Shown piece by piece: positions 3,711 to 37,127 of a stretch of DNA of 64,000 bases. Source of the DNA: Microbacterium testaceum StLB037 (GTDB taxonomy: Bacteria > Actinomycetota > Actinomycetes > Actinomycetales > Microbacteriaceae); assembly GCF_000202635.1 (NCBI RefSeq), contig NC_015125.1, forward strand, positions 3,782,001 to 3,846,000, in the 5' to 3' direction. The position numbers and the translations under genes were made by a program. The notes below the pieces were generated by a model, which was given only the letters and a program-made list of their open reading frames with translations, was not told the DNA's origin and did not search any database. Numbering within the stretch: the first letter of the stretch is position 1; each line of letters starts with the position of its first letter.

Positions 3711-4565
3711 TCAGCGCACCTGACGCACCGAGAACTGCAGGCGCGGGTGCGCGTAGGCCTCCTGCGACTCGATGAGGCGCAGCTCGCGGGATCCCGACTC
3801 GTACGTGTTGGTGAGCAGGTCGAAGACACTGGATGCCGTGCGAGCCAGCGCATCGGCCGCGTCGCCGGCGCTGCGGCGGTAGTGCGCGGTGAAGAGCGCC
3901 GCCGTGACGTCGCCTGACCCGTTCGCCTTCATGGGGATGAGCGGCGTCTGCACGATCCACGCGCCGTTGTCATCGACGACCATCATCTCGATCGTGTCGG
4001 GCTCGCGGTCGGGTCGCTCGACGCTCGTGACGAGGATCGTCCGCGGGCCGCGGTCGCGCAGCGCATCGGCGGATTCGAGGGTCGAGTCGATGCTGCCCGG
4101 CTCGGTGCCCGTCAGGAAGCCGAGCTCGAACTGGTTCGGGGTGAGGATGTCGGCGACGGGCACGACGCGCTCACGCAGCAGCTCGGGGATCGCGGGAGCC
4201 ACGAAGCACCCGGACTTGGCGTTGCCCATGACCGGGTCGCAGGCGTAGACGGCTTCCGGATTCGCCTTCTTCACCCGCGCGACGGTGTCGATGATGACGT
4301 CGGCGATTCCCTCGCCGCCCTGGTATCCCGAGAGCACGACGTCGATCTCGGGGAAGATCCCGCGCTCCTCGATCCCGGTGATCACCGCGGCCACGTCGTC
4401 GGGCGAGATCAGCGGCCCGCGCCATGCGCCGTAGCCGGTGTGATTGGAGAAGTTGACCGTGTAGACGGGGAGAACCTCGACGCCGATGCGCTGGAGGGGG
4501 AAGACGGCGGCGGAGTTGCCGACGTGTCCATACGCGACGGCCGACTGGATCGAGAGAACCTTCAT
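3711..4565 (-). CDS. pdxY: Pyridoxal kinase PdxY
   Basis: Phosphorylates pyridoxal (and possibly related vitamers) to PLP in the salvage route. The 284 residues match the family. The N-terminus has QSAVAYGHVGNSAAVFPLQ, followed by NFSNHTGYGAW, CDPVMGN near 150, and the ribokinase-type anion-hole motif NGSGDVTAAL with the catalytic Asp near 225. It starts inside the end of the MocR gene (ATGA overlap at 4562-4565), so the regulator and kinase are cotranscribed and coupled. The divergent pdxST genes supply de novo PLP, so this locus carries both routes. Confidence 0.92.
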   Translation of the reverse strand: MKVLSIQSAVAYGHVGNSAAVFPLQRIGVEVLPVYTVNFSNHTGYGAWRGPLISPDDVAAVITGIEERGIFPEIDVVLSGYQGGEGIADVIIDTVARVKKANPEAVYACDPVMGNAKSGCFVAPAIPELLRERVVPVADILTPNQFELGFLTGTEPGSIDSTLESADALRDRGPRTILVTSVERPDREPDTIEMMVVDDNGAWIVQTPLIPMKANGSGDVTAALFTAHYRRSAGDAADALARTASSVFDLLTNTYESGSRELRLIESQEAYAHPRLQFSVRQVR

Positions 4566-24798: not shown

Positions 24799-26655
24799 AT
24801 GCCCGAAAACGACCCCAACGCCAACGACCCCTTCGCCGAACTGTACGGACGGCTGCCCGACCCCCGCGCAGCCGCTTCGGACAGTGCTCGGCGACGCTCG
24901 ACACCGACCGACGAGTCGGCCGACACGTCCGGTCCGCAGACGCCTCCGTCGCGTCGCGCGGCGCGTGCGGCCCGCGCGCAGACCGGCCCGACCGCCGCCC
25001 AGCCTGCCGCCCCCACGGCGCCCGAGGCCGTGGCATCCGTGACTCCACAGCCCGCGGCCGAGCCGACGCGCGGGGCGCGGTCCGAGGAGCAGGCGCCGGC
25101 GCAGCCCGCAGCTCCGAAGCCCGCCGTGTCGCAGCCGACCGCCGTGAGCTCGGCTCAGCCGCCGGCAGACGCCTCCGCGCGCGCCGCTCAGCCGGCCGCT
25201 GCTCAGCCGGCCGCAGCGCGCACCCCCGCCGCGCAAACGCCCGCGGCGCAGACCCCCGCAGCGCAAACGCCCGCCGCGCAACCGCCCGCGGCGCGCACCC
25301 CCGGGGCGCAGCCCCCCGCACCGCAAACCCCTGCAGCACGCACCCCCGCACCGCAGACCCCCGACGAGACCGCACGCCGCACCGCCGCCGCGCAGCAGCC
25401 CACCCAGCAGATGCCGATCGCCCGGCCCGAGCGCGAGCCCGCGCTCGTAGGGGCGACGGCCGGCTCCGCGGGGGCCGACGGCTCCGTCCCGAGCGGCTCG
25501 CTCGAAGACCTCTTCACCGGCCGCGCGCACACCGATCAGATCGGCGCTCCCGCACCGCGGCCTCCGAAGAAGCGCCGCCGCACGGGGGGATGGATCGCAC
25601 TGACGATCGTCCTGGTGATCCTCGGCGGACTGGCGGGCGGAGGGTTCGCCCTCTGGAACACCTACGGCGAGCGGGTCCAAGCCTTCTTCGGCACGGGTGA
25701 GTCGCTGGACTACGAGGCCGGAATGGCCAACGGCGAAGCGCGCGTCACAATCGTCTCGGGAGACACCGGCGAGTCGGTGTCTCCGAAGATGTTCGAGGCC
25801 GGGGTCACCAAGGCCTCCAACTCGCTGTACAAGTACATGGTCGACAACTCCGTGGGCTTCACCTTCCAGCCCGGCGTGTACAAGCTGCAGAAGGAGATGA
25901 CGTCGGAGGCGGTCATCGCGGCCCTCCGCGACCCGGCGACCCGGCTCGACAGCTCCGTCCAGCTGCGCGAGGGGCTGACCCTCGAGCAGTCGCTCGATGC
26001 GATCTCGGAGCAGGCCGGCATCCCGCGCGCCGATCTCGACGCCGCTGTCGCCGACCCGTCGCAGTACGGCGTGCCCGCCTCGACGCTCGAGGGTTGGATC
26101 TTCCCCGCGACCTACGACTTCGACGACGGCGTCACCGCGAAAGACGTCATCACGCGCATGGTGCAGCGCACCGTGCAGTCGCTCGATCAAGCCGGCGTCC
26201 CCGAGGCGGATCGCGAGCGGATCCTCATCATCGCCTCGATCATCGAGCGCGAGGCGCGCGCGTCCGACGACTTCTACAAGGTGTCACGCGTCATCGAGAA
26301 CCGCCTGCAGCCGGACAACGACGAGACGCACGGACTGCTGCAGATGGACTCGACGGCGCAGTACGGCGTGGGGGAGATCGGCGCGGGATCCTCGTCGTCG
26401 TCCGAGAACGCCCTGACGAGCGACAACCCGTGGAACACCTACATCCACCCCGGTCTTCCCATCGGACCGATCGCCAACGCGGGAGACCTCGCGATCGATG
26501 CGGCGATGCACCCGGCGGACGGTGACTGGTACTACTTCACGACCGTGAACCTAGCGACGGGCGAGACGGTGTTCTCGACGACCTACGCCGACCAGCTCAA
26601 GGCCGTCGACCAGTTCCAGCAGTGGTGCCGCGACAACCCCGACGGCGGATGCTGA
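24799..26655 (+). CDS. mltG: Endolytic murein transglycosylase MltG
   Basis: Cuts nascent peptidoglycan strands at the membrane. It is 618 residues, far longer than E. coli MltG (340), because of a disordered cytoplasmic Ala/Pro/Gln/Thr-rich region (about 30-245) that includes ten 5-residue repeats. One membrane helix lies at about 263-285 (WIALTIVLVILGGLAGGGF). The YceG domain has the catalytic Glu in IIASIIEREARAS (about 484) and GLLQMDSTAQYGVG. The ATG start has AGGAG 10 bases upstream. The end overlaps aroE by 7 bases. Confidence 0.94.
   Translation: MPENDPNANDPFAELYGRLPDPRAAASDSARRRSTPTDESADTSGPQTPPSRRAARAARAQTGPTAAQPAAPTAPEAVASVTPQPAAEPTRGARSEEQAPAQPAAPKPAVSQPTAVSSAQPPADASARAAQPAAAQPAAARTPAAQTPAAQTPAAQTPAAQPPAARTPGAQPPAPQTPAARTPAPQTPDETARRTAAAQQPTQQMPIARPEREPALVGATAGSAGADGSVPSGSLEDLFTGRAHTDQIGAPAPRPPKKRRRTGGWIALTIVLVILGGLAGGGFALWNTYGERVQAFFGTGESLDYEAGMANGEARVTIVSGDTGESVSPKMFEAGVTKASNSLYKYMVDNSVGFTFQPGVYKLQKEMTSEAVIAALRDPATRLDSSVQLREGLTLEQSLDAISEQAGIPRADLDAAVADPSQYGVPASTLEGWIFPATYDFDDGVTAKDVITRMVQRTVQSLDQAGVPEADRERILIIASIIEREARASDDFYKVSRVIENRLQPDNDETHGLLQMDSTAQYGVGEIGAGSSSSSENALTSDNPWNTYIHPGLPIGPIANAGDLAIDAAMHPADGDWYYFTTVNLATGETVFSTTYADQLKAVDQFQQWCRDNPDGGC
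25216..25365 (+). repeat. 15-base minisatellite in mltG
   Basis: Ten consecutive 15-base units of the form GCG-CAR/CGC-ACS-CCC-GCN encode AQTPA/ARTPA-like pentapeptides. Because the unit is a multiple of three, copy-number change would keep the frame. Confidence 0.8.
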
Positions 26656-27485
26656 CGGCGACCCGGCTCGCCGTCTGGGGAGACCCGATCGACCACTCGC
26701 GGTCGCCGGCGCTGCACACGGCGGCGTACCGCGAGCTCGGTCTTTCCTGGACGTACGGGCGACAGAGGGTGGCCGAGGCGGAGTTCCCCGCGCACCTGGC
26801 TGAGTTGGATGCCACGTGGCGGGGGCTCTCGCTCACGATGCCGCTGAAGAACGCCGCGTTCCGTAAGGCTGTCGCGCTCGACGACGCGGCGCGACGCACG
26901 GGCGCCGTCAACACCTACCTCCTCACGACCGAGGGCCCGCGCGGGTTCAACACTGACGTCGGCGGCCTGGCGCGTGCGCTGCGCGAGGCGGGCGTGGTCG
27001 AACCGAATACCGCGCGGATTCTCGGCGCCGGCGCCACGGCCACCTCCGCGGTGCTGTCCCTTTGCGAACGCGGCGTGCGGCACGTGGAGGTGGTGGCCCG
27101 GCGCCCGGAGGCCGTCGTCCCCCTGCGCGAGCTCGGGGAGTCGATCGGCGTGGAGATCACTCGGGGGTCCTTCAACGATCCCCACGCGCCCCTGCCCGTC
27201 GACGTCACCATCGCGGCTCTGCCGGGGCAGGTCGACGTGGGTCCCGGCATCCGTCCCTTCGCCGAGAACGGCGGGCTGCTCGTTGACGTCGTCTACGGTA
27301 ACTGGCCGACAGCCCTCGCCGAACGGTGGCGTGACGCGGGCAACGAGGCGATCAACGGGCTCCCGATGCTGCTGCACCAGGCCCTGCTGCAAGTGCGCAT
27401 CTTCGTCGGCGGCGATCCGGCTGTGCCCCTGGATCGCGAGGACGCCGTGCTGGCCGCGATGCGCACCGCGCTCGTGGGAGACTAG
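26649..27485 (+). CDS. aroE: Shikimate dehydrogenase (biosynthetic copy)
   Basis: NADPH-dependent reduction of 3-dehydroshikimate to shikimate in aromatic amino acid synthesis. 278 residues from the ATG at 26649. Substrate-binding parts are [13 protein letters not shown], the catalytic Lys in [10 protein letters not shown] (about 67) and the Asp in [12 protein letters not shown]. The nucleotide loop is [12 protein letters not shown]. The start overlaps mltG by 7 bases and aroC follows after 4 bases, so it belongs to the aroE-C-K-B operon. A second, divergent copy lies at 31812-32717. Confidence 0.93.
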
Positions 27486-27489
27486 GGGA

Positions 27490-28716
27490 ATGCTTCGCGT
27501 TCTCACGGCCGGCGAGTCCCACGGCCCCGAACTGATCGCCCTCATGGAGGGGATGCCGGCCGGCGTGCCCGTCTCATCCGCGCAGATCCGCGCCGAACTC
27601 GCGCGTCGTCGCCTCGGCTACGGCCGCGGCTCTCGTATGAAGTTCGAAGAAGACGAGCTGACGCTGTCCACGGGCATCGTGCACGGCTTCACCATCGGCA
27701 GCCCGATCGCGCTGCGCATCGGGAACACCGAGTGGCCGAAGTGGACCGAGGTCATGAGCCCCGAGCCGATCGAGCTGTCCGACAAGTCGCGTGGCCGCGG
27801 CGCCGCGCTCACGCGCCCGCGTCCCGGCCACGCCGACCTCGTCGGCATGCAGAAGTACGGCTTCGACGAGGCCCGCCCGATCCTGGAGCGCGCCTCCGCC
27901 CGCGAGACGGCCGCCCGCGTGGCCCTCGGTGCGATCGCCCGCTCGTTCCTCGGCGAGCTCGGCATCCGTCTCGTGAGCCACACGCTCTCGATCGGTCCGG
28001 TCCGCGTGCCCGACGACGCCGCGTTCCCGTCACCCGACGACGTCGACTCCCTCGACGCCGATCCGCTGCGCTGCTTCCACCCCGAGACGAGCGCGGCCAT
28101 GGTCGCCGAGGTCGACGCCGCGAAGAAGGACGGCGACACGCTCGGCGGCGTCGTCGAGGTCCTCGCCTACGGCCTGCCGCCGGGGCTCGGCTCCCACGTG
28201 CAGTGGGACCGTCGACTGGATGCCAAGCTCGCTCAGGCGCTGATGAGCATTCAAGCGATCAAGGGCGTGGAGGTCGGCGACGGCTTCCTTACCACGACCC
28301 GTCGCGGCTCGCGAGCCCACGACGAGCTGTTCGCCACGGGCGACGGCATCACACGCTCCTCCGACCGCGCGGGCGGCACCGAGGGCGGCATGTCGACGGG
28401 CACCGTGCTGCGCGTGCGCGCGGGCATGAAGCCCATCGCCACGATCCCGAAGGCGCTGCGCACCGTCGACGTCGCCACCGGCGACACCGCGGCCGCGCAC
28501 CACCAGCGTTCCGACGTCTGCGCCGTTCCCGCCGCCGGCGTCGTGGCCGAGGCCATGGTCGCCGTCACTCTCGCCGACGCCGTGCTCGAGAAGTTCGGCG
28601 GCGACAACATCGCCGAGACGCGACGCAACCTCGAGTCCTACCTCGCGAACCTCCCCGAGACGCTGCGCACGACCGACGCGTCCGACGCCGCGCTGCTCGC
28701 GCATGACCTCGCCTGA
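27490..28716 (+). CDS. aroC: Chorismate synthase
   Basis: Uses reduced FMN to turn EPSP into chorismate, the last common step. 408 residues from the ATG at 27490. The three family signatures are present: [18 protein letters not shown] near the start, [18 protein letters not shown] with [14 protein letters not shown], and [15 protein letters not shown] near 300. GGGGAA directly precedes the ATG. The end overlaps aroK by 14 bases. Confidence 0.97.
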
Positions 28717-29278
28717 GCCGGTGAACACCGAGGCGACGGTCCGGAATGCCGGAACGCCCGCCGCCTCGGCCGTCGTGCTCATCGGCCCCATGGGGGCGGG
28801 CAAGACCAGCGTCGGACGCCGTGTCGCGCGCGCGCTCGGCACGCCGTTCACCGACACCGACAAGCTCGTCGTGCGCGACCACGGGCCGATCCCGGCGTTG
28901 TTCGTCGCCCACGGCGAGCCGCACTTCCGGGCCCTCGAGCGCGAGGCGGTCGTCGAGGCGCTGGGCCGGGGCGGCGTCGTCGCGCTCGGCGGGGGAGCGG
29001 TTCTCGACCCGCTGACCCGCGAACGCCTGCGGGAGCACCGCGTGGTGCTGCTGACCGTGGCCCCGCACGTCGTGGCATCCCGGATCCACGGAGACGAGCG
29101 GCCCCTGCTCGGCGGCGAAGACCCCGTCGCGCGCTGGCTGCGCATCTTCGAGGAGAGGCGGCCCGTGTACGAGCAGACCGCCGACATCGCATTCGACACC
29201 TCGTCGGGCCCGCTCGCGCGGGTCGTCGACGACATCGTGGCCTGGGCACGCCGTGTGCCGGCCGGAGAGACGGCATGA
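28703..29278 (+). CDS. aroK: Shikimate kinase
   Basis: ATP-dependent phosphorylation of shikimate. In 191 residues, Walker A is [15 protein letters not shown] (about 30-45). FTDTDKLVV holds the magnesium-binding Asp, FRALEREAV the shikimate-binding Arg, and ALGGGAVLD the glycine-rich shikimate loop. The N-terminus is about 25 residues longer than usual. A later start (for example GTG 28721) is possible, but the ATG at 28703 inside aroC fits the operon. Confidence 0.94.
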
Positions 29279-30351
29279 CCGACACCACCACCATCAGCGT
29301 CGCCGGGGACTCCGGCTACGACATCACGATCGGCCGCGGCCTCCTCGCGTCGCTGGGCGAGGTGCTGCCGGCGGCGGCGCAGAAGGTGCTCGTCGTTCAC
29401 CCGCCGACGCTCGCGAAACAGGCCGAAGCGCTGCGGGCCCAGCTGATGGGCGACCGCCAGGTGCTGCTCGCCGAGATCCCGGATGCCGAGGCCGGCAAGC
29501 GCGTGGAAGTCGCGGCGTTCTGCTGGCAGGTCATGGGACAGGCCGACTTCACGCGCACCGACGTCGTGATCGGCTTCGGCGGGGGAGCGGTCACCGACCT
29601 CGCCGGCTTCGTGGCCGCGACGTGGCTGCGCGGCGTCGCGCTCGTCCAGGTGCCGACGACCGTGCTCGGCATGGTGGATGCGGCCGTGGGCGGCAAGACC
29701 GGCATCAACACCGCGGAGGGGAAGAACCTCGTCGGCGCGTTCTGGCCGCCGGTCGCCGTGGTGTGCGACCTCGACCTGCTCGACACGCTGTCGAAGAACG
29801 AGGCGACCGCCGGATTCGCCGAAGTCGTCAAGGCGGGTTTCATCTGGCATCCGGAGATCCTCGATCTCATCGAGGCCGACCCGTCGGGGATCGTGGACCC
29901 GCGCGGCGACGCATTCCGCCGCTGCGTCGAATTGGCCATCGACATGAAGGCGCGCGTCGTGGGCGAAGACCTGCGCGAGGCGGGGCTGCGCGAGGTGCTG
30001 AACTACGGTCACACCCTCGGGCACGCGATCGAGCACGCCGAGCGCTACCGCTGGCGTCACGGCGCCGCGATCTCGGTGGGCATGGTGTTCGCGGCCGAGC
30101 TGTCACGGCTCGCCGGACGCCTGTCCGACGACGTCGCGCAGCGCCACCGCACGGTTCTCGAGTCGCTCGGGCTGCCGACGACGTATCGCGCCGGGGCGTT
30201 CCAGACGCTCAAGGCCACGATGCAGCGCGACAAGAAGAGCCGCGGCGCGATGCTGCGCTTCATCGTGCTCGACGACCTCGCTCGCCCGACCGTGCTGCAG
30301 GCGCCGGACGAGTCGCTGCTGTTCGCGGCATATCAGGAGGTCGGGGCGTAG
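29275..30351 (+). CDS. aroB: 3-Dehydroquinate synthase
   Basis: NAD- and zinc-dependent cyclisation of DAHP to 3-dehydroquinate. The 358 residues contain [17 protein letters not shown] (NAD loop), [28 protein letters not shown] and the metal site [12 protein letters not shown]. The ATGA overlap with aroK gives coupling. In most actinobacteria aroQ follows directly; here the catabolic cassette intervenes. Confidence 0.97.
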
Positions 30352-30435
30352 ATCCGCGCGAACCTCGCAGCTTCCCCCCGGAATCCTGCGAGGTTTCGTC
30401 GTTTCTGCGAGAGACGGCACGCCCCACCCGCGAAG

Positions 30436-30465
30436 CGGCCCCGCCTCCGGACGGAGACGGGGCCG
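30436..30465. terminator. Bidirectional terminator between aroB and the MHS transporter
   Basis: CGGCCCCG pairs with CGGGGCCG (30436-30443/30458-30465). Inner CTCC/GGAG pairs follow after one C-A mismatch. It lies between the convergent aroB and transporter genes, 84 bases after aroB and 13 bases after the transporter stop. Confidence 0.75.
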
Positions 30466-30478
30466 TTCGACGTCGGGA

Positions 30479-31798
30479 TCAGACCCCGGCGGGGACGCGC
30501 TGTTCGGCGCGGAGGCCGAGCTGGTCGGTGGGCACGTTCTTCGTCTCGCGCGCCGTGAGGGCGCTCACCGAGGCGATGATCGCGATCGCGGCGGTGAAGA
30601 GGCTGATGACGACCCAGCCGCCCGCGCCGCCGCCACCGAGGGCCGCGACGATGCTCGGCGCGAACCCGGCCATCAGGAAGCCGAGCTGCGTGCCTATCGC
30701 CATACCGGAGAAGCGCACCCGGACGCTGAACATCTCGCCGTAGAACGACGGCCAGACGGCGTTGGCGGCGGCGTATCCGCACGAGAACGTGAGGATCGCC
30801 AGGCCGAAGGTGAGGAGGTCGTTCCCGGCGCCCATCGACAGCATGTAGAACGGCATGAACGCCGCCGACGACAGGGCGCCGTAGATGAAGACGGGCTTGC
30901 GGCCGATCCGGTCGGCGAGCTTGCCGAACAGGGGCTGCGTGAACAGCGCCACGACGTTGGCGACGACGACGAGCCACAGGGTCACACTGGCGGCGAGGCC
31001 GACCTCCTTGCCGTACGCGATGGCGAGGGTGCCGAAGACGGTGGAGACCGCGGCGATGAAGGCGCAGAAGATCACGCGGAGCACGTCGCGCCAGTGGTTC
31101 TTCAGCAGCGGGACCAGTGGCATCCGGGCGATCTGACCGGTCGCCTTCGCCTGCTCGAACTCGGGGGTCTCGTGCAGACTCCGGCGGATGAAGAACGCCA
31201 CCACGACGACCACGGCGCTGAGCCAGAACGGCACACGCCAGCCCCACGAGAACTTGATGTCGTCGGGCAGGGCGACGACCGGGATGAAGATGAGCGCGGC
31301 GAGGATCTGACCGCCCTGGGTGCCGGTGAGCGTCCACGAGGTGAAGAACGAGCGGCGACCGTCGGGCGCGTGCTCGAGGGTGAGTGACGAGGCACCCGCC
31401 TGCTCACCCGCGGCGGACAGGCCCTGGGCGAGACGGCACAGCACGAGCAGTACGGGGGCGAACCAGCCGATCTGCGCGAAGCCGGGGAGGCAGCCGATGA
31501 CGAAGGTCGAGAGCCCCATGAGCAGCAGCGTGAACATCAGCACCTTCTGGCGGCCGATGCGGTCACCGAAGTGGCCGAGGATGATCGCGCCGAAGGGGCG
31601 GGCGATGTAGGCGAACCCGAAGGTCGCGAACGACATCACCAGCGCCGCCTGGTCGCCCGAAGGGAAGAACACCGTCGGGAAGATGAGGGCGGCTGCGGAG
31701 CCGAAGAGGAAGAAGTCGTAGTACTCCACGGCGCTTCCCATGAAGCTGGCGGTGGCCGCCTTCACGGGAGTCTTCCGCGTCGTTGCGGGGGTGGTCAT
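30479..31798 (-). CDS. MHS-family MFS transporter, probable shikimate/quinate uptake
   Basis: 439 residues with about 12 membrane helices and the MHS (metabolite:H+ symporter) start ATASFMGSAVEYYDFFLFG. The loop motif GHFGDRIGRQKVL is repeated as KLADRIGRKPVF near 275. LCRLAQGLSAAGEQAGASSL is typical of ShiA/ProP-like members. The substrate is inferred from its operon: it follows a shikimate/quinate dehydrogenase gene by 13 bases, beside a dehydroshikimate dehydratase. No signs of damage. Confidence 0.85.
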   Translation of the reverse strand: MTTPATTRKTPVKAATASFMGSAVEYYDFFLFGSAAALIFPTVFFPSGDQAALVMSFATFGFAYIARPFGAIILGHFGDRIGRQKVLMFTLLLMGLSTFVIGCLPGFAQIGWFAPVLLVLCRLAQGLSAAGEQAGASSLTLEHAPDGRRSFFTSWTLTGTQGGQILAALIFIPVVALPDDIKFSWGWRVPFWLSAVVVVVAFFIRRSLHETPEFEQAKATGQIARMPLVPLLKNHWRDVLRVIFCAFIAAVSTVFGTLAIAYGKEVGLAASVTLWLVVVANVVALFTQPLFGKLADRIGRKPVFIYGALSSAAFMPFYMLSMGAGNDLLTFGLAILTFSCGYAAANAVWPSFYGEMFSVRVRFSGMAIGTQLGFLMAGFAPSIVAALGGGGAGGWVVISLFTAAIAIIASVSALTARETKNVPTDQLGLRAEQRVPAGV

Positions 31799-31811
31799 GG
31801 ACGGATGCTCC

Positions 31812-32717
31812 TTAGCGGGCGAGGGCCGGGTCGACGGGGACGTCGAGGCCTTTGTCGGTCGTGACGAGGTCGAGGAAATGGGCGGTCATGCGGGCGGGGT
31901 CGGGTCGCGTCCCCGTGATGAGGGCGAACGCGTCAACGGCCTGGTGGACCGCCATGCGTCCGCCGCTGAGCGTGCGGCAGCCGCGCTCGCGCGCGATGAC
32001 GAGGAGTTCGGTGTCGAGGGGGCGGTACACGATGTCAGCCACCCAGAGCTCGGGGCGCAGGAGCGCGGCGTCGAGGGGGAGTCCGGGATGCTCGGCCATG
32101 CCGACCGGCGTGCAGTGCACGAGACCGTCCGCGTCGGCGAGGACGGTGGCCAGCTCGGCGGGTGCGGCGGTGTCGACGACGGCGAGCGGATGCCGAGCGC
32201 CCAGGTCCGCGGCCAACGCGCCGGCCCGCGCGGGGTCGAGGTCGACGATGCTCAGGCGCGCGGTCCCGAGCCGCAGCAGCGCGTCGGCGACGGCGGACCC
32301 GGCCCCGCCCGCGCCGAGCTGGACGACGTGCCGGGTTCCGGCATCCGGGAGTCCGTCGGTGAAGGCGGCGGCGAAACCCGTCGTGTCGGTGTTGTGGCCG
32401 ACGCGGCCGGTCGGGGTGAACAGCACGGTGTTGACCGCGCCGAGGGCCGCGGCGACGGGATCGATGCGGTCGAGGTGGGGGAGCACGCTCTGCTTGCACG
32501 GGTGCGTGACGTTGACGGCGTCGTAGCCGAGCCGCTCGGCCCAGGCCAGCACCTCGCCGATTCGCTCGGCATCGATGCCGAGGGCGGTGAGGTCGAGCGG
32601 ACGGTAGACGTAGGTCAGTCCGAGGGCGCGCGCTTCGGCCATGTGCATCGGCGGCGTCAGCGAGGGGAGGACCCCCGTGCCGATGAGGCCGACGAGGTAG
32701 GGGTGCGCGTCGTTCAC
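31812..32717 (-). CDS. Quinate/shikimate dehydrogenase, catabolic copy
   Basis: A 301-residue shikimate-dehydrogenase fold, only distantly like the aroE copy at 26649. Seen are GVLPSLTPPMHMAEARALGL, the catalytic Lys in NVTHPCKQSVLPHLD (about 74), NTDTTGFAAAF, the nucleotide loop LGAGGAGSAVADAL, and a late GGRMAVHQAVDAF. LDLDP/IVDLDP-like acid at the end of the second strand of the nucleotide fold favours NAD over NADP, as in C. glutamicum QsuD. It probably oxidises shikimate or quinate. The GTG start has AAGGAG 6 bases upstream; the operator is 30 bases upstream. Confidence 0.82.
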   Translation of the reverse strand: MNDAHPYLVGLIGTGVLPSLTPPMHMAEARALGLTYVYRPLDLTALGIDAERIGEVLAWAERLGYDAVNVTHPCKQSVLPHLDRIDPVAAALGAVNTVLFTPTGRVGHNTDTTGFAAAFTDGLPDAGTRHVVQLGAGGAGSAVADALLRLGTARLSIVDLDPARAGALAADLGARHPLAVVDTAAPAELATVLADADGLVHCTPVGMAEHPGLPLDAALLRPELWVADIVYRPLDTELLVIARERGCRTLSGGRMAVHQAVDAFALITGTRPDPARMTAHFLDLVTTDKGLDVPVDPALAR

Positions 32718-32746
32718 GGTACTCCTTCGTGTCCGTGTGGCGGTTA

Positions 32747-32762
32747 TGTACTAACCGGTACG
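32747..32762. promoter_or_regulatory. Candidate TetR operator upstream of aroE2-transporter
   Basis: TGTACTA-AC-CGGTACG, an imperfect copy of the perfect palindrome at 33760-33775 (TGTACCA-GA-TGGTACA). It lies 30 bases before the aroE2 start. Confidence 0.6.
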
Positions 32763-32862
32763 TTCAGAGGAAACCACGGCGGCGCCGCGCTGTCAACGAC
32801 AGAATCCGGAGGACGCGGCGCCGAAGCCCGGGAGCGGATCCTCGGCGTGCCGGGCGGTGGTG

Positions 32863-32931
32863 CACAACTCCTGCAGATCGCCGCGTCGGGGGTGCCTGAG
32901 CCTCGGGGAAGCCGGATCTGCCGGAGTTGTG
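32863..32931. repeat. Long inverted repeat (REP-like hairpin)
   Basis: CACAACTCC-T-GCAGATC (32863-32879) pairs with GATCTGC-C-GGAGTTGTG (32915-32931): 16 of 17 positions pair, with a 35-base GC-rich spacer. There is no coding content. Confidence 0.7.
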
Positions 32932-32956
32932 TCGCGACGGCGGTGACACGCTGCTC

Positions 32957-33100
32957 GCGATCCCCCGCCCAGGCCCAGTCCGCGAACCCGCGCACCCCGG
33001 CCAGGCTCAACCCGCAGGCTCGCGCACCCCGGCCAGGCTCAACCCGCAGGCTCGCGCACCCCGGCCAGTCGCAGCCCGCAGGCGTGCGCACTCCGGGCGG
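32957..33100. repeat. 32-base tandem repeat array
   Basis: The unit starts CGCGCACCCCGGCCAGGCTC and ends AACCCGCAGGCT. Copies 1-2 (32989-33020, 33021-33052) are nearly identical. Copy 3 (33053-33084) is diverged in its second half, copy 0 (32957-32988) is degenerate and copy 4 is partial. The units are directly joined with no spacers. Confidence 0.8.
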
Positions 33101-33102
33101 AT

Positions 33103-33735
33103 TCAGCGCGAGGGCGCCGTCAGCCAGCCGACCACGACGTCGCCCAGGGCGGAGCGCAGGTGGGCGCGGCGCTCGGGGGAGGCCAGGTCGACGTCGAAGA
33201 GGTGGCCGAAGGTGTACTGGTTGGCGACCTGGAAGACGCAGTACGAGCTGATCACGAGGTGCACGTCGATCGCGTCGACGTCGGAGCGGAACACACCCGC
33301 CTCCCGACCGCGCTCGAGGATCTCGTCGAGGAGCCCCTTCGCCGGCTGCGAGAGCGTTCGCAGTCCCTCGATCTGGCGGATGAATTCGCCGCGGTGGATG
33401 TTCTCAATCGCGACCAGACGGATGAAGGCCTCGTGCCCGACGTGGTGGTCGAAGGTCAGCTCGGCGAGGGCGCGGATGGCATCCACGGGGTCGGCGTGAT
33501 CGACGTCGATCGCGCGTTCCGCCTCGCGGATTCCGCGGTAGGCCTCCTCGAGCACGGCCCGATAGAGACCCTCTTTGCCACCGAAGTAGTAGTAGATCAT
33601 CCGCTTCGTCGTGCGGGTGCGCGCGGCGATGTCGTCGACCCGGGCGCCGGAGTACCCCTCTTCGGCGAAGACCTCGGTCGCGACGGCGAGCAGCTCGGCG
33701 CGCGTGCGCTCCGCGTCTCTGCGTGCCTCGGCCAT
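33103..33735 (-). CDS. TetR-family regulator of the quinate/shikimate cassette
   Basis: A 210-residue TetR protein. The N-terminal HTH (FAEEGYSGARVDDIAARTRT, then KRMIYYYFGGKEGLY, about 20-55) is classic. The C-terminal ligand domain is alpha-helical (FDHHVGHEAFIRLVAIEN). Its ATG has TAGTCT (plus 33742-33747) 6 bases upstream, so the mRNA is leaderless. The palindrome between it and the divergent dehydratase gene, repeated upstream of aroE2, suggests that it represses both units and itself. The ligand is unknown; a pathway compound such as shikimate, quinate or dehydroshikimate is the natural guess. Confidence 0.85.
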   Translation of the reverse strand: MAEARRDAERTRAELLAVATEVFAEEGYSGARVDDIAARTRTTKRMIYYYFGGKEGLYRAVLEEAYRGIREAERAIDVDHADPVDAIRALAELTFDHHVGHEAFIRLVAIENIHRGEFIRQIEGLRTLSQPAKGLLDEILERGREAGVFRSDVDAIDVHLVISSYCVFQVANQYTFGHLFDVDLASPERRAHLRSALGDVVVGWLTAPSR

Positions 33736-33741
33736 TCGGTC

Positions 33742-33777
33742 AGACTAGTGGACCCGCTTTGTACCAGATGGTACATT
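33742..33777. promoter_or_regulatory. Divergent promoters with perfect TetR operator
   Basis: Operator TGTACCA-GA-TGGTACA (33760-33775). A -10 box for the dehydratase, TACATT (33772-33777), overlaps its right end, 8 bases before that ATG. A -10 box for tetR, TAGTCT on the minus strand (33742-33747), puts the operator over the tetR -35 region. Confidence 0.65.
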
Positions 33778-33785
33778 CGGCCGCC

Positions 33786-35597
33786 ATGAGGACCTCGATC
33801 GCGACCGTCTGCATCAGCGGCACGCTCGCCGACAAACTCCACGCCTGCGCCGACGCCGGCTTCGACGGCGTGGAGATCTTCGAGCCCGACCTCCTGGCGG
33901 CCCCCGAAAGCCCCGAGGAGATCGCCGCCCTCGCCGGGCGTCTGGGTCTGAGCCTCGACCTCTACCAACCGATGCGCGACGTCGAGGGCGTCGACGAGGA
34001 GGCCTTCGCCGCGGTGCTGCGACGCGCCGAGGCCAAGTTCCGCCTCATGCAGCGCCTCGGGATGGATCTCGTGCTCTGCTGCAGCAACGTCGCCACCGCG
34101 ACGGTGGACGATGACGCCGTCTCCGCCGAGCAACTGCGACGCCTCGGCGATCTGGCGGCGGGGTACGGCATCCGGATCGCCTTCGAAGCCCTCGCGTGGG
34201 GGCGTTTCGTCGACGACTACCGCCGCGCGTGGCGCATCGTCGAGCTCGCCGATCACCCCGCGGTGGGGGTGTGCCTCGATTCGTTCCACATCCTCTCGCG
34301 CGGGCACGACCCCGCCGACATCGCCCGCATCCCGGGCGAGAAGATCTTCTTCGTGCAGCTCGCCGACGCCCCGCGCCTGAGCATGGACGTGCTCTCGTGG
34401 AGCCGGCACCATCGCCTCTTCCCGGGCGAGGGGGAGTTCGACCTCACCGATTTCACCGCGCGCATCGTCGACGCCGGATACACCGGCCCCTGGTCGCTCG
34501 AAGTGTTCAACGACACCTTCCGACAGACCGACGCCCGCCGCACGGCGCTGCACGCGCGGCGGTCCCTGCGCTGGCTCGAGGACGCCGTCTCGCGGGCACT
34601 GCCCGATGCGCCGGCCGACCTGCGGATGCTCCCGGACTCGGCGGCCCCCTCGGGGGTCGACTTCATCGAGGTCAAGGCCGAGGACACCTCCGCGATCGAG
34701 GAGCTGCTCGCGCAGCTCGGCTTCACCTCCCGCGGTCGCCACCGCACCAAGCCGGTCACCCTGTGGACGGCGGGGGAGGCGCGGGTCATCCTCAACGAGC
34801 AGCACGCCCGGGGGTGGGAGCCGCGCCTCGCGGCGATCGGCCTCGAGGTCGACGACGCCGAGGCGGTCGACCTCCGCATGCTCGAGCTCGGCGTGCCCCG
34901 GGCGTACCGCCGCACGTACGCGACCGAGGAACGTCTCGACGGCGCCGTGGCGCCCGACGGGACCGAGGTCTACTGGGCGCAGGCAGCCGACGAGGGCGAT
35001 CCGGCCTGGGTCGCGGAGTTCGAGCACGGGGAACCGCTCCGCGCGACCGCGATCACCGGGGTCGACCACGTCAGCCTGAGCCAGCCCTGGGATGCCATCG
35101 AAGAGGCGACCCTGTTCTACACAGCGGGCTTCGCGCTCCGCGTCGACAGTGCCACCGAGGTTCCGGGACCGCGTGGCCTCGTCGCCAGCCGCGTGCTCGT
35201 CGCCCCCGGCGGCGGAGTGCGCCTGCCCCTGAACGTCGCTCCGGCGATCCTCGCCGCGGAGCGCGCGGGGGCCGCGCTCCCGCAGCACGTCGCCTTCCTC
35301 TGCGACGACGTGCGCACGGTCGCCCGCGCCGCCCGGGAGCGGGGATTCACTCCGCTCGCGATGCCCGGCAACTACTACGACGACATCGCCGCGCGCTTCG
35401 CCCTGACCGAGACCGAGGTCGACGAGCTGCGCGAACTCCACCTCGGCTACGACCAGGATGCCGCGGGTGCGTACCGGCACTTCTACACCCGCACGATCGG
35501 CGAGGTGTTCTTCGAGTTCGTCGAGCGCATCGACGCCTACGCGGGATACGGCGCCGGCACCGCCCCCGTGCGCCTCACGGCGCAGGGACGGCGCTGA
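33786..35597 (+). CDS. qsuB: 3-Dehydroshikimate dehydratase fused to HPPD-like VOC domain (QsuB/QuiC1 type)
   Basis: 603 residues. Residues 1 to about 280 form a TIM-barrel sugar isomerase-type domain with metal ligands in IAFEALAWGRF, VGVCLDSFHIL and WSLEVFNDTF. It turns 3-dehydroshikimate into protocatechuate. Residues about 290-600 form a two-part VOC region like 4-hydroxyphenylpyruvate dioxygenase, with potential metal ligands in GVDHVSLSQ, QHVAFLCDD and EVFFEFVER. The same fusion is known in P. putida QuiC1 and C. glutamicum QsuB; the second domain's role is unsettled. The ATG at 33786 is the first with a fitting -10. No ring-cleavage genes follow in the window. Confidence 0.88.
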   Translation: MRTSIATVCISGTLADKLHACADAGFDGVEIFEPDLLAAPESPEEIAALAGRLGLSLDLYQPMRDVEGVDEEAFAAVLRRAEAKFRLMQRLGMDLVLCCSNVATATVDDDAVSAEQLRRLGDLAAGYGIRIAFEALAWGRFVDDYRRAWRIVELADHPAVGVCLDSFHILSRGHDPADIARIPGEKIFFVQLADAPRLSMDVLSWSRHHRLFPGEGEFDLTDFTARIVDAGYTGPWSLEVFNDTFRQTDARRTALHARRSLRWLEDAVSRALPDAPADLRMLPDSAAPSGVDFIEVKAEDTSAIEELLAQLGFTSRGRHRTKPVTLWTAGEARVILNEQHARGWEPRLAAIGLEVDDAEAVDLRMLELGVPRAYRRTYATEERLDGAVAPDGTEVYWAQAADEGDPAWVAEFEHGEPLRATAITGVDHVSLSQPWDAIEEATLFYTAGFALRVDSATEVPGPRGLVASRVLVAPGGGVRLPLNVAPAILAAERAGAALPQHVAFLCDDVRTVARAARERGFTPLAMPGNYYDDIAARFALTETEVDELRELHLGYDQDAAGAYRHFYTRTIGEVFFEFVERIDAYAGYGAGTAPVRLTAQGRR

Positions 35598-35603
35598 TAA
35601 CGT
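35598..35603 (+). promoter_or_regulatory. Leaderless -10 box for aroQ
   Basis: TAACGT directly after the qsuB stop, with 7 bases to the ATG at 35611. It would free aroQ from the inducible cassette upstream. Confidence 0.5.
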
Positions 35604-35610
35604 GCCCGAC

Positions 35611-36069
35611 ATGACCACGCCTCGTCGCCTGCTGCTCGTCAACGGCCCGAACCTCAACCTGCTCGGCACGCGCCAGCCCGAGATCTACGGCTCCGACACG
35701 CTCGCCGACGTCGAGCGGGTCACGACCGAGGCGGCGGAACACCACGGGCTCGAGGTGCGGGCGATCCAGAGCAACCACGAGGGCGCGCTGATCGACGCGA
35801 TCCACGCCGCGCGTCTCGACTGCGCGGGCATCGTGATCAACGCCGGGGGACTCACGCACACCTCGGTCGCTCTGCGCGACGCGCTGGCATCCGTGGCCCT
35901 CCCCGTCGCCGAGGTGCACATCTCGAACATCAAAGAACGCGAGAGCTTCCGTCACTTCTCCTACATCGAGGACGTGGCCGCCGTGCACGTGATCGGCGAG
36001 GGGGTGCCCGGGTACGCCCGGGCCGTCCACCTGCTCGTCGAGGTCATCGCGGGCCGCGCCGACGGATGA
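35611..36069 (+). CDS. aroQ: 3-Dehydroquinate dehydratase, type II
   Basis: Dodecameric enzyme that interconverts 3-dehydroquinate and 3-dehydroshikimate, shared by biosynthesis and quinate catabolism. The 152 residues contain NGPNLNLLGTRQPEIYGSDT with the catalytic Tyr near 27, QSNHEGALIDAIH, INAGGLTHTSVALRDA and the catalytic His in VAEVHISNI near 106. By position it is the aroQ that normally follows aroB. It is the only dehydroquinate dehydratase in the window and its own -10 box suggests constitutive supply. Confidence 0.95.
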   Translation: MTTPRRLLLVNGPNLNLLGTRQPEIYGSDTLADVERVTTEAAEHHGLEVRAIQSNHEGALIDAIHAARLDCAGIVINAGGLTHTSVALRDALASVALPVAEVHISNIKERESFRHFSYIEDVAAVHVIGEGVPGYARAVHLLVEVIAGRADG

Positions 36070-36153: not shown

Positions 36154-36714
36154 ATGGCATCCACCGCAGACATCAAGAACGGCGTCGTCCTCAGCATCGA
36201 CGGTCAGCTCTGGAACGTCGTGGAGTTCCAGCACGTCAAGCCCGGCAAGGGCGGCGCGTTCGTCCGCACCAAGCTCAAGAACGTCATGAGCGGCAAGACC
36301 GTCGACCGCACCTTCAACGCCGGCGCGAAGGTCGACATCGAGAACGTCGACCGTCGCGACTTCACGTACCTCTACAACGACGGCGAGGGCTTCGTCTTTA
36401 TGGACGTCGCCGACTACGACCAGATCACCGTAGGGGCCGCCACCGTCGGCGACGCCGCCAACTTCCTCCTCGAGAACCAGCAGGTGCAGATCGCCCTGAA
36501 CAACGGCAACCCGCTCTACATCGAGCTCCCGCCGTCCGTGGTCCTCGAGGTCACGTACACCGAGCCGGGCCTGCAGGGCGACCGCTCGTCGGCCGGCACG
36601 AAGCCCGCGACCGTCGAGACCGGCTACGAGATGCAGGTTCCGCTGTTCCTCGAAACCGGCACGAAGATCAAGGTCGACACTCGCACGGGCGAGTACCTCG
36701 GCCGCATCAGCTGA
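36154..36714 (+). CDS. efp: Elongation factor P
   Basis: Rescues ribosomes stalled at polyproline. The 186 residues form three beta domains, starting [20 protein letters not shown]. The tip loop is [16 protein letters not shown]; its Lys contacts the P-site t[21 protein letters not shown] lies in domain III. It precedes nusB by 2 bases, as in other actinobacteria. No EpmA or EarP modification gene is in view. Confidence 0.97.
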
Positions 36715-36716
36715 CG

Positions 36717-37127
36717 TTGTCCGCCCGCACCAAGGCGCGCAAGCGCGCCCTCGACATCCTGTTCCAGGCCGACGTCCGCGGTGAGGAACTGCCGATCATG
36801 CTGGCCGCCGAGGCCAAGCGGGCGGCATCCGAGCCCGATCGTCAGGCCTCATGGCTGTACGCCCGCGACATCGTCGATGGAGTGATCGACAACCGCGACG
36901 CGATCGACGAACAGATCACGACGTTCTCGAAGGACTGGTCGCTGCAGCGCATGCCCGCGGTCGACCGTGCTCTGCTGCGCATCGGCACGTGGGAGATCCT
37001 CTACAACGACGAGGTGCCCACGGCCGTCGCGATCGACGAGGCGGTGGAGCTCGCGAAGGAGTTCTCGACCGACGACTCCGGCTCGTTCGTGCACGGCGTG
37101 CTGGCGCGTATCGCACGTTCGTCCTGA
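36717..37127 (+). CDS. nusB: Transcription antitermination factor NusB
   Basis: All-helical 136-residue partner of NusE/S10 in rRNA antitermination. It begins SARTKARKRALDILFQADVR and has [20 protein letters not shown] and VAIDEAVELAKEFSTDDSG, all strong family marks. The start is TTG at 36717, two bases after the efp stop, so it is coupled to efp. A strong terminator follows 20 bases after the stop. Confidence 0.95.
   Translation: MSARTKARKRALDILFQADVRGEELPIMLAAEAKRAASEPDRQASWLYARDIVDGVIDNRDAIDEQITTFSKDWSLQRMPAVDRALLRIGTWEILYNDEVPTAVAIDEAVELAKEFSTDDSGSFVHGVLARIARSS

Follow-up and report, generated by a model that had tools for sequence, protein, structure and literature searches.

The locus

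We analysed a window of 64,000 bases from Microbacterium testaceum StLB037 (G000:C1:3782001-3846000, within a single-contig genome of 3,982,034 bases; G and L numbers are our handles for genomes and loci), in which genes that probably serve the utilisation of quinate and shikimate lie inside the run of aro genes. The order is aroE-aroC-aroK-aroB on the forward strand, then a major facilitator superfamily (MFS) transporter gene, a dehydrogenase gene and tetR on the reverse strand, then qsuB-aroQ-efp-nusB on the forward strand again. A previous interpretation of this DNA made without database searches (the sequence-only reading) had given this order, these strands and the coordinates 30479-35597 for the inserted block, all of which proved exact, and its view of the block as a quinate/shikimate cassette within an aro gene run is upheld by the enzyme families and the gene order.

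The reverse-strand dehydrogenase gene (31812..32717, -) belongs to the quinate/shikimate dehydrogenases (NF009201, 392 bits for a cut-off of 235), although it scores 256.7 bits, under the cut-off of 515, against the strict equivalog NF010631; its best solved relative is 3jyo, a quinate/shikimate dehydrogenase that we take to be from Corynebacterium glutamicum. An Asp at the cofactor position is a mark of NAD use, and this residue is found in 37/37 catabolic dehydrogenases versus an Arg in 92 of the 94 aligned AroE proteins, so that the enzyme is predicted to be of the NAD type. Beside it lies the gene of a transporter of the metabolite:H+ symporter type (30479..31798, -), ShiA-like in its matches to TIGR00883 and NF007414, and upstream of both stands tetR (33103..33735, -), whose product combines the Pfam domains TetR_N and TetR_C_29. 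The forward arm, qsuB or quiC (33786..35597, +), encodes a predicted two-domain 3-dehydroshikimate dehydratase. Its best PDB match, 5hmq, aligns with residues 1-601 of the query and is described in the accessible text of PMC7442255 as QuiC1, a two-domain dehydroshikimate dehydratase; the ten active-site residues listed there for C. glutamicum QsuB are all present in the window protein with identical numbering. Among 39 aligned QsuB sequences, E134, D165, H168, Q191, S206, R210 and E239 are invariant (39/39), and R64, L97 and L136 are each found in 38.

The next gene, aroQ (35611..36069, +), starts 13 bases past qsuB and encodes a type II dehydroquinase by its profile matches, the best solved one being 8idr, the C. 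glutamicum dehydroquinase (PMC10772564, as far as its accessible text goes). It is the only type II enzyme found in the genome, and no type I dehydroquinase was found there by a search that was positive in 7 of 14 control genomes; as the sole dehydroquinase found, AroQ is needed by both pathways, as had been proposed. No pca gene lies in the window, and the suggestion that the product must be used elsewhere agrees with the presence of pcaH, pcaG, pcaB, pcaD, pcaC, pobA and a PcaR-like regulator gene clustered at about 1.809-1.815 Mb, 2.0 Mb from the cassette, with pcaH, pcaG and pcaC above curated cut-offs.

The flanking genes, all on the forward strand, are aroE (26622..27485), a biosynthetic shikimate dehydrogenase gene by Pfam and NCBIfam matches (best NCBIfam model 225.7 bits, cut-off 235) with an NADP-like Arg at the cofactor position; aroC (27490..28716; chorismate synthase, PF01264, E 4.8e-114); aroK (28703..29278; shikimate kinase, PF01202); aroB (29275..30351; 3-dehydroquinate synthase, TIGR01357, 344.9 bits, above the cut-off of 305); and, behind aroQ, efp (36154..36714; Pfam) and nusB (36717..37127; PF01029).

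Distribution and history of the cassette

We compared the window with 80 named AroB loci (the best 80 of 582 confirmed) and with 149 genomes of the genus, counting QsuB as present at 300 bits or more. The closest named relatives by AroB are Microbacterium, with M. testaceum NS283 at the top (98%), a strain that bears the cassette, as does M. trichothecenolyticum DSM 8608. Thirteen of the 80 loci carry the cassette in identical order and strands (the contig of one of them, L041, stops before aroQ), and the identical block is found at this site in relatives down to 78% AroB identity, a few variants differing. A QsuB match is present in 38 of the 149 genomes, near aroB in 20, elsewhere in 17 and in one genome where aroB was not found; that of G013 is only partial, with a stop. 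Among the 20, G054 and G078 have no tetR in the cassette and G114 has an extra aroQ. A differing order was seen in L129 (G135), another of the 20, with a transporter of 55% identity between tetR and qsuB and with qsuB split in two.

On a core tree of 102 rows, built by a quick method, 22 of 23 carriers fall within one clade of 53 rows, and in the nearest clade 11 of 19 rows have the cassette. A single gain in the 53-row clade costs 22 losses, and 25 are needed if all carriers go back to a single gain; with gain and loss both free, 13 changes suffice. The tree of the cassette itself recovers the same close groups as the core tree: when held to the core topology, the cassette alignment loses 186 log units, compared with losses of 4035-4410 for five label-shuffled topologies. 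One visible conflict is L121, which the cassette tree places with L043, L048 and L049 and the core tree with L065. Finally, remnants of qsuB persist in relatives that have no cassette. In M. testaceum TPD7010 (L036), codons 578-603 of qsuB (the last 26) remain ahead of aroQ at 65% identity (tblastn E 5e-4), in DNA that matches cassette genomes at 84-88%, and by eye a remnant of roughly seven to nine terminal codons is present in L144 and L147; no clear scar was found in the remaining five cassette-less rows of the nearest clade (L042, L143, L145, L146 and L148).

We read these data as mainly shared descent of the cassette with repeated loss and some exchange, the arrangement probably being roughly as old as one large Microbacterium clade. 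The sequence-only reading had itself named a cassette carried here by most relatives, and as diverged as their core genes, as the sign of an old arrangement; by that standard the arrangement appears largely old. The alternative that a foreign cassette was recently inserted by horizontal transfer and split aroB from aroQ in the window strain could draw on the patchy distribution with its 13 changes, on G114 (L120), which resembles an independent acquisition equipped with its own copy of aroQ, on G109 (L121), where the cassette lies on the opposite side of a GNAT acetyltransferase gene, on the presence of other cargo at the site, and on the rejection of exact identity between cassette and core trees (AU test). 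We nevertheless think it unlikely, because distant relatives have identical order, strands and site, because the penalty of the core topology is small beside those of the shuffled ones, because close relatives carry deletion scars, and because there is no GC step at the cassette borders. A recent insertion private to the window lineage, as had been implied, is rejected by the relatives' identical site, the scars and the tree fit; a base-composition island was likewise rejected, there being no GC step.

Proposed regulation of the catabolic arms and of aroQ

Matches to GTACYNNNYGGTAC occur only twice in the whole genome, at the qsuB and dehydrogenase promoters (the reversed pattern gave 1). The first, the TetR operator-like palindrome GTACCAGATGGTAC (33761..33774) in the tetR/qsuB gap, is supported by this genome-wide match and by relatives, and has six bases in common with the candidate extended -10 of qsuB, TGGTACATT (33769..33777, +), namely the first six of the box, which stands 8 bases ahead of the ATG and is found in 30 of the 31 qsuB starts tested. 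The second, GTACTAACCGGTAC (32748..32761), lies directly 3' of the dehydrogenase -10. The likely promoter of the dehydrogenase and transporter genes (32768..32796, -) was recognised by eye from the upstream regions of relatives, and consists of TTGACA (32791-32796), 17 nt and TTTCCT (32768-32773). The gap between dehydrogenase gene and tetR also holds tandem repeats with a 32-base period (window 32963-33090) and a 17-base inverted repeat (32863-32931).

Leaderless actinobacterial promoters have a TANNNT close to the start codon, and we scored such a box when it lay 5-8 nt ahead of the start. A putative leaderless -10 of tetR, TAGTCT (33742..33747, -), is of this kind, a TANNNT being at leaderless distance in 18/18 tetR starts tested.

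The link between regulator and palindrome was assessed over 57 distinct qsuB upstream regions: GTAC-N6-GTAC lies within 250 nt of qsuB in 35 of 42 loci with a TetR relative versus 2 of 15 loci without one, for a background of 2 such palindromes in 1.36 Mb from 66 loci that have no qsuB. The two loci with the palindrome and no TetR in the cassette, L122 and L126, belong to G054 and G078, which encode a TetR 71% identical elsewhere (L330, G054:C1:3176227-3176844, and L331), the operators remaining at the cassette. The exact palindrome was not found in the 3.6-kb locus of the G054 orphan, and the cassette TetR was not found at E 1e-25 in five close relatives that have no cassette (G020, G024, G072, G007, G053). 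It could be argued that the TetR gene governs something else and that another regulator binds the palindromes, since TetR genes are common neighbours, since the palindromes persist in G054 and G078 although tetR is missing from their cassettes, and since 7 of the 42 TetR-bearing loci have no exact palindrome; this we regard as improbable, because G054 and G078 carry the same TetR elsewhere in the genome and because TetR and palindrome co-occur over separate qsu loci. An extension of the putative TetR regulon to the pca operon was tried and gained no support (GTACYNNNYNGTAC with one mismatch, 2 matches in L116 for 0.94 expected).

In front of aroQ, a leaderless extended -10, TGATAACGT (35595..35603, +), is followed by 7 bases and the ATG; it opens with the three bases of the qsuB stop codon, which holds the TG of the extended -10. 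The proposal that aroQ has its own leaderless -10 is thus upheld by conservation, rather than by a mapped start. A TANNNT stands at leaderless distance before aroQ in 25/25 cassette loci (0.3 for base shuffling) and in 39/40 cassette-less loci where aroQ is at least 30 bases from aroB (shuffling 1.0), versus 2 of 23 loci where the two genes nearly touch (shuffling 0.9); the full TGNTANNNT form is found in 24, 15 and 1 of these, respectively. Control starts gave 0/117 for efp, 1/113 for nusB, 0/82 for aroB and 3/116 for aroC. By these counts, an aroQ that stands away from aroB comes with its own promoter-like box whether or not a cassette is present.

The gap between the convergent aroB and transporter genes contains two hairpins. 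The first (30361..30395; -25.9 kcal/mol on the + strand and -26.5 on the - strand, z -3.8 and -2.7) is a likely terminator, and overlaps one terminator-like match of a terminator scan (30379-30398, +; 4 in the region in total versus 1.4 expected). The second (30437..30464; -36.8 and -39.3 kcal/mol, z -4.3 and -4.2) is a possible terminator of uncertain type, without a T run and absent from the output of that scan. With convergent genes and two hairpins in between, readthrough of the aro transcript into aroQ seems unlikely.

The statement that aroB is closely followed by aroQ in many actinobacteria holds in part: of the 56 best-scoring aroQ loci taken from our order and class samples, an aroB match lies within 1.5 kb in 21, including 17 of the 26 loci first seen in the class sample, and in most order-sample loci there is none. 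The two genes touch in many Microbacterium loci, for example L067-L073. They also touch, without an aroQ -10 box, in L143 and L148 (G053 and G027) of the testaceum group, where the coupling has perhaps been regained.

Proposed mechanism

The most coherent interpretation is, we think, that of a TetR-repressed cassette for the utilisation of quinate and shikimate, docked between aroB and aroQ and using the one AroQ of the cell; we consider this functional assignment, drawn from sequence, to be probable. Quinate and shikimate would enter by the shikimate-type transporter and be oxidised by the NAD-type dehydrogenase, quinate to dehydroquinate and shikimate to dehydroshikimate; AroQ would convert dehydroquinate into dehydroshikimate, and QsuB would turn the latter into protocatechuate for the distant pca enzymes. 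When quinate and shikimate are missing, TetR would sit on both palindromes, of which one covers the qsuB -10 and the other directly follows that of the dehydrogenase, and switch both arms off, so that QsuB would not drain dehydroshikimate from biosynthesis, while aroQ would escape repression because of its own leaderless extended -10. An inducer would free TetR, and transcription of qsuB would then cross the 13-base gap into aroQ and raise AroQ. The shared aroQ is in this way likely to be fed doubly, by its own box and by the qsuB promoter. The opposite net flow would be helped by the choice of cofactor, NAD for the catabolic dehydrogenase and NADP for AroE. That the cassette makes protocatechuate for a purpose other than growth, such as iron supply, appears very improbable to us: protocatechuate is indeed the product of QsuB-type enzymes, and in C. 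glutamicum it has been tied to iron limitation (accessible part of PMC10128138), but the two-domain QsuB type is counted as catabolic, unlike AsbF (accessible part of PMC7442255), a transporter and an NAD dehydrogenase adjoin qsuB, and the genome has a pca set.

Several points weigh against the interpretation that we prefer. QsuB reaches 519 bits against the QuiC model NF042435, under its curated cut-off of 1200; the transporter reaches 350.6 bits against TIGR00883 (cut-off 443.45) and 268.8 against the shikimate transporter model NF007414 (cut-off 538), both again too low; and pcaB and pcaD, best matches though they are, fall under curated cut-offs, as does the PcaR-like regulator. With such scores the substrate is a prediction made by kin. 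As to regulation, the Fisher p of 2.4e-6 for the association between TetR and palindrome overstates the case, because the rows are related and their kinship is ignored, and seven TetR-bearing loci (L120, L129, L134, L178, L187, L190 and L191) have no exact palindrome within 250 nt, L120 and L134 having imperfect ones by eye. A generic sigma-70 scan reported no promoter in the region, and the TANNNT rule was fixed only after the sequences had been inspected. The rejected identity of cassette and core trees belongs on the same side.

Type of AroQ at the site

The AroQ of the window is not of the usual type for aroB-linked AroQs of other genera. In 22 loci of other genera, its identity to the best AroQ match close to aroB amounts to only 36-46%, with the exception of Humibacter albus (L110; 72%), whereas the best match per genome of the genus is 60-97% identical. 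A tree of 103 AroQ sequences (147 columns; the C. glutamicum dehydroquinase 8idr was left out) is split by a branch with 100/99 support into two types. Type A comprises the 17 rows labelled as aroB-linked in other genera, L100, all but one of the 19 aroB-linked rows that came from the order and class samples, one qsu-linked row and nine that are unlinked. Type B comprises every aroB-linked Microbacterium row of the thinned set, 21 unlinked rows and, among the qsu-linked rows, 8 of the 9 from other genera, all 6 that come from other loci of the genus and 3 of the order sample (unlinked meaning that no aro or qsu match was found within 1.5 kb). The single type A qsu-linked row, L182 (G167), whose aroQ adjoins a qsu cluster of another genus, runs counter to a clean rule. 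The group formed by the Microbacterium AroQs also includes L110, L213 (G289) and the unlinked L235 of another family, and its neighbours are the qsuB-linked AroQs of G043 and G102 (99/84). In L110 and L213 a Microbacterium-type AroQ stands at the aroB site of other genera, perhaps by transfer.

Forcing Microbacterium together with the locus-equivalent type A rows is rejected (p 6.8e-5 with 103 rows and p 0.0019 with a 93-row set, for a grouping named after the first tree had been seen), from which we conclude that the AroQ at a conserved site has been exchanged for another type. Type B may be catabolic in origin, although no aro or qsu match lies close to its unlinked rows and the basal linked rows named below have no cassette.

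It is tempting to go further and to see the cassette as the carrier, the aroB-linked biosynthetic AroQ having been replaced in the Microbacterium line by a qsu-linked type that arrived beside qsuB; the catabolic genes would then have been lost repeatedly, leaving a formerly catabolic AroQ as the sole and essential one in most of the genus. G114, where another aroQ comes after qsuB-aroQ', would then be one stage of this traffic, and G043 and G102, in which the single aroQ found lies behind qsuB with aroB on another contig, would be others. We hold this scenario only tentatively, and on balance doubt it. A linked AroQ that shares about 70% identity with that of the window, but no cassette, is present in the basal Microbacterium rows L081 and L299. 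As these two rows and the pair L302 and L321 are without cassette, the tree does not support the idea that the first relinking of aroQ to aroB came together with the cassette, which lowers the probability of the scenario. The attempt to identify the aroQ' of L120 as clearly cassette-type failed too, since it has no resolved place inside the Microbacterium AroQ group. In nine genomes, aroB and aroQ lie at a distance or on separate contigs, as judged by eye; as all nine belong to one clade, the unlinking there looks derived.

Other cargo at the aroB-aroQ site

The aroB-aroQ gap is a variable site with several cargoes. Many loci share, in this gap or in that between aroB and the transporter gene, a stretch of DNA with a gene that is a GNAT acetyltransferase in L045 (L045:11112-11660, the sole copy put to Pfam), and for which there is no room in the window gap; its position on the other side of the cassette in L120 and L121 suggests more than one arrival. 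A cargo of 2.2 kb in L044 and L054 has a long open frame that is transporter-like by eye, and in L052 (Microbacterium sp. Gd 4-13) the gap is occupied by molybdopterin oxidoreductase and moeA genes (L052:11111-15534). In L100, L101 and L109 (Cryobacterium, Glaciihabitans), 3.3-7.0 kb separate aroB from the best aroQ match, without strong cassette matches.

Comparison with known systems

The locus offers a natural and repeated case in which opposite pathways share one enzyme and one locus, and it suggests how a single genome may keep them apart: in its regulatory layout a repressor would hold down the catabolic arms, and an embedded promoter would free the shared enzyme. TetR with its operator is a candidate quinate/shikimate sensor for Gram-positive bacteria. 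In the AroQ switch, a distant relative has displaced an essential biosynthetic gene in situ, at a conserved operon site, and this history can be tested on the variety of arrangements found in living strains. Among titles and the first parts of abstracts, in a literature that excludes most subscription journals, we found no description of a TetR-controlled quinate cassette within an aro operon and no account of an AroQ type switch at the aroB site.

The nearest studied system is the qsuABCD operon of C. glutamicum, which is under the LysR regulator QsuR (PMC11258901, PMC7442255, PMC9705862, PMC11802643, in their accessible parts), a protein that responds to chorismate according to the accessible part of PMC11258901. 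As in the window, QsuB, the dehydrogenase QsuD and the dehydroquinase QsuC are encoded together, and further degradation of protocatechuate is assumed. The review PMC11802643 (accessible part) assigns QsuC to the shikimate pathway, so that the C. glutamicum dehydroquinase would likewise serve both directions. The two systems differ in that a LysR protein is encoded beside one operon in C. glutamicum, whereas the window cassette has a TetR_N plus TetR_C_29 regulator with palindromes at two promoters on opposite strands; unlike qsuABCD, it is made of two arms on opposite strands, lies inside an aro run and leaves aroQ with a leaderless box of its own. Another relative is QuiC1 of Pseudomonas putida (5hmq), a two-domain dehydratase like the window QsuB, which scores under the NCBIfam QuiC equivalog cut-off.

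Closer to home, the stand-alone qsu clusters of other Microbacteriaceae (18 loci in 17 genomes) resemble the window cassette in having qsuB (18/18), a dehydrogenase match (13/18), a match to the window TetR (8/18) and, in some, the palindrome near qsuB; they differ in having no aroB match in the 16-19.5 kb fetched and, in 9 of the 18, an aroQ match of their own. The window locus is well explained as a conserved variant of quinate/shikimate utilisation, in which the surprising elements are the pair of TetR operators, the switch in AroQ type and a shared aroQ that is separately promoted.

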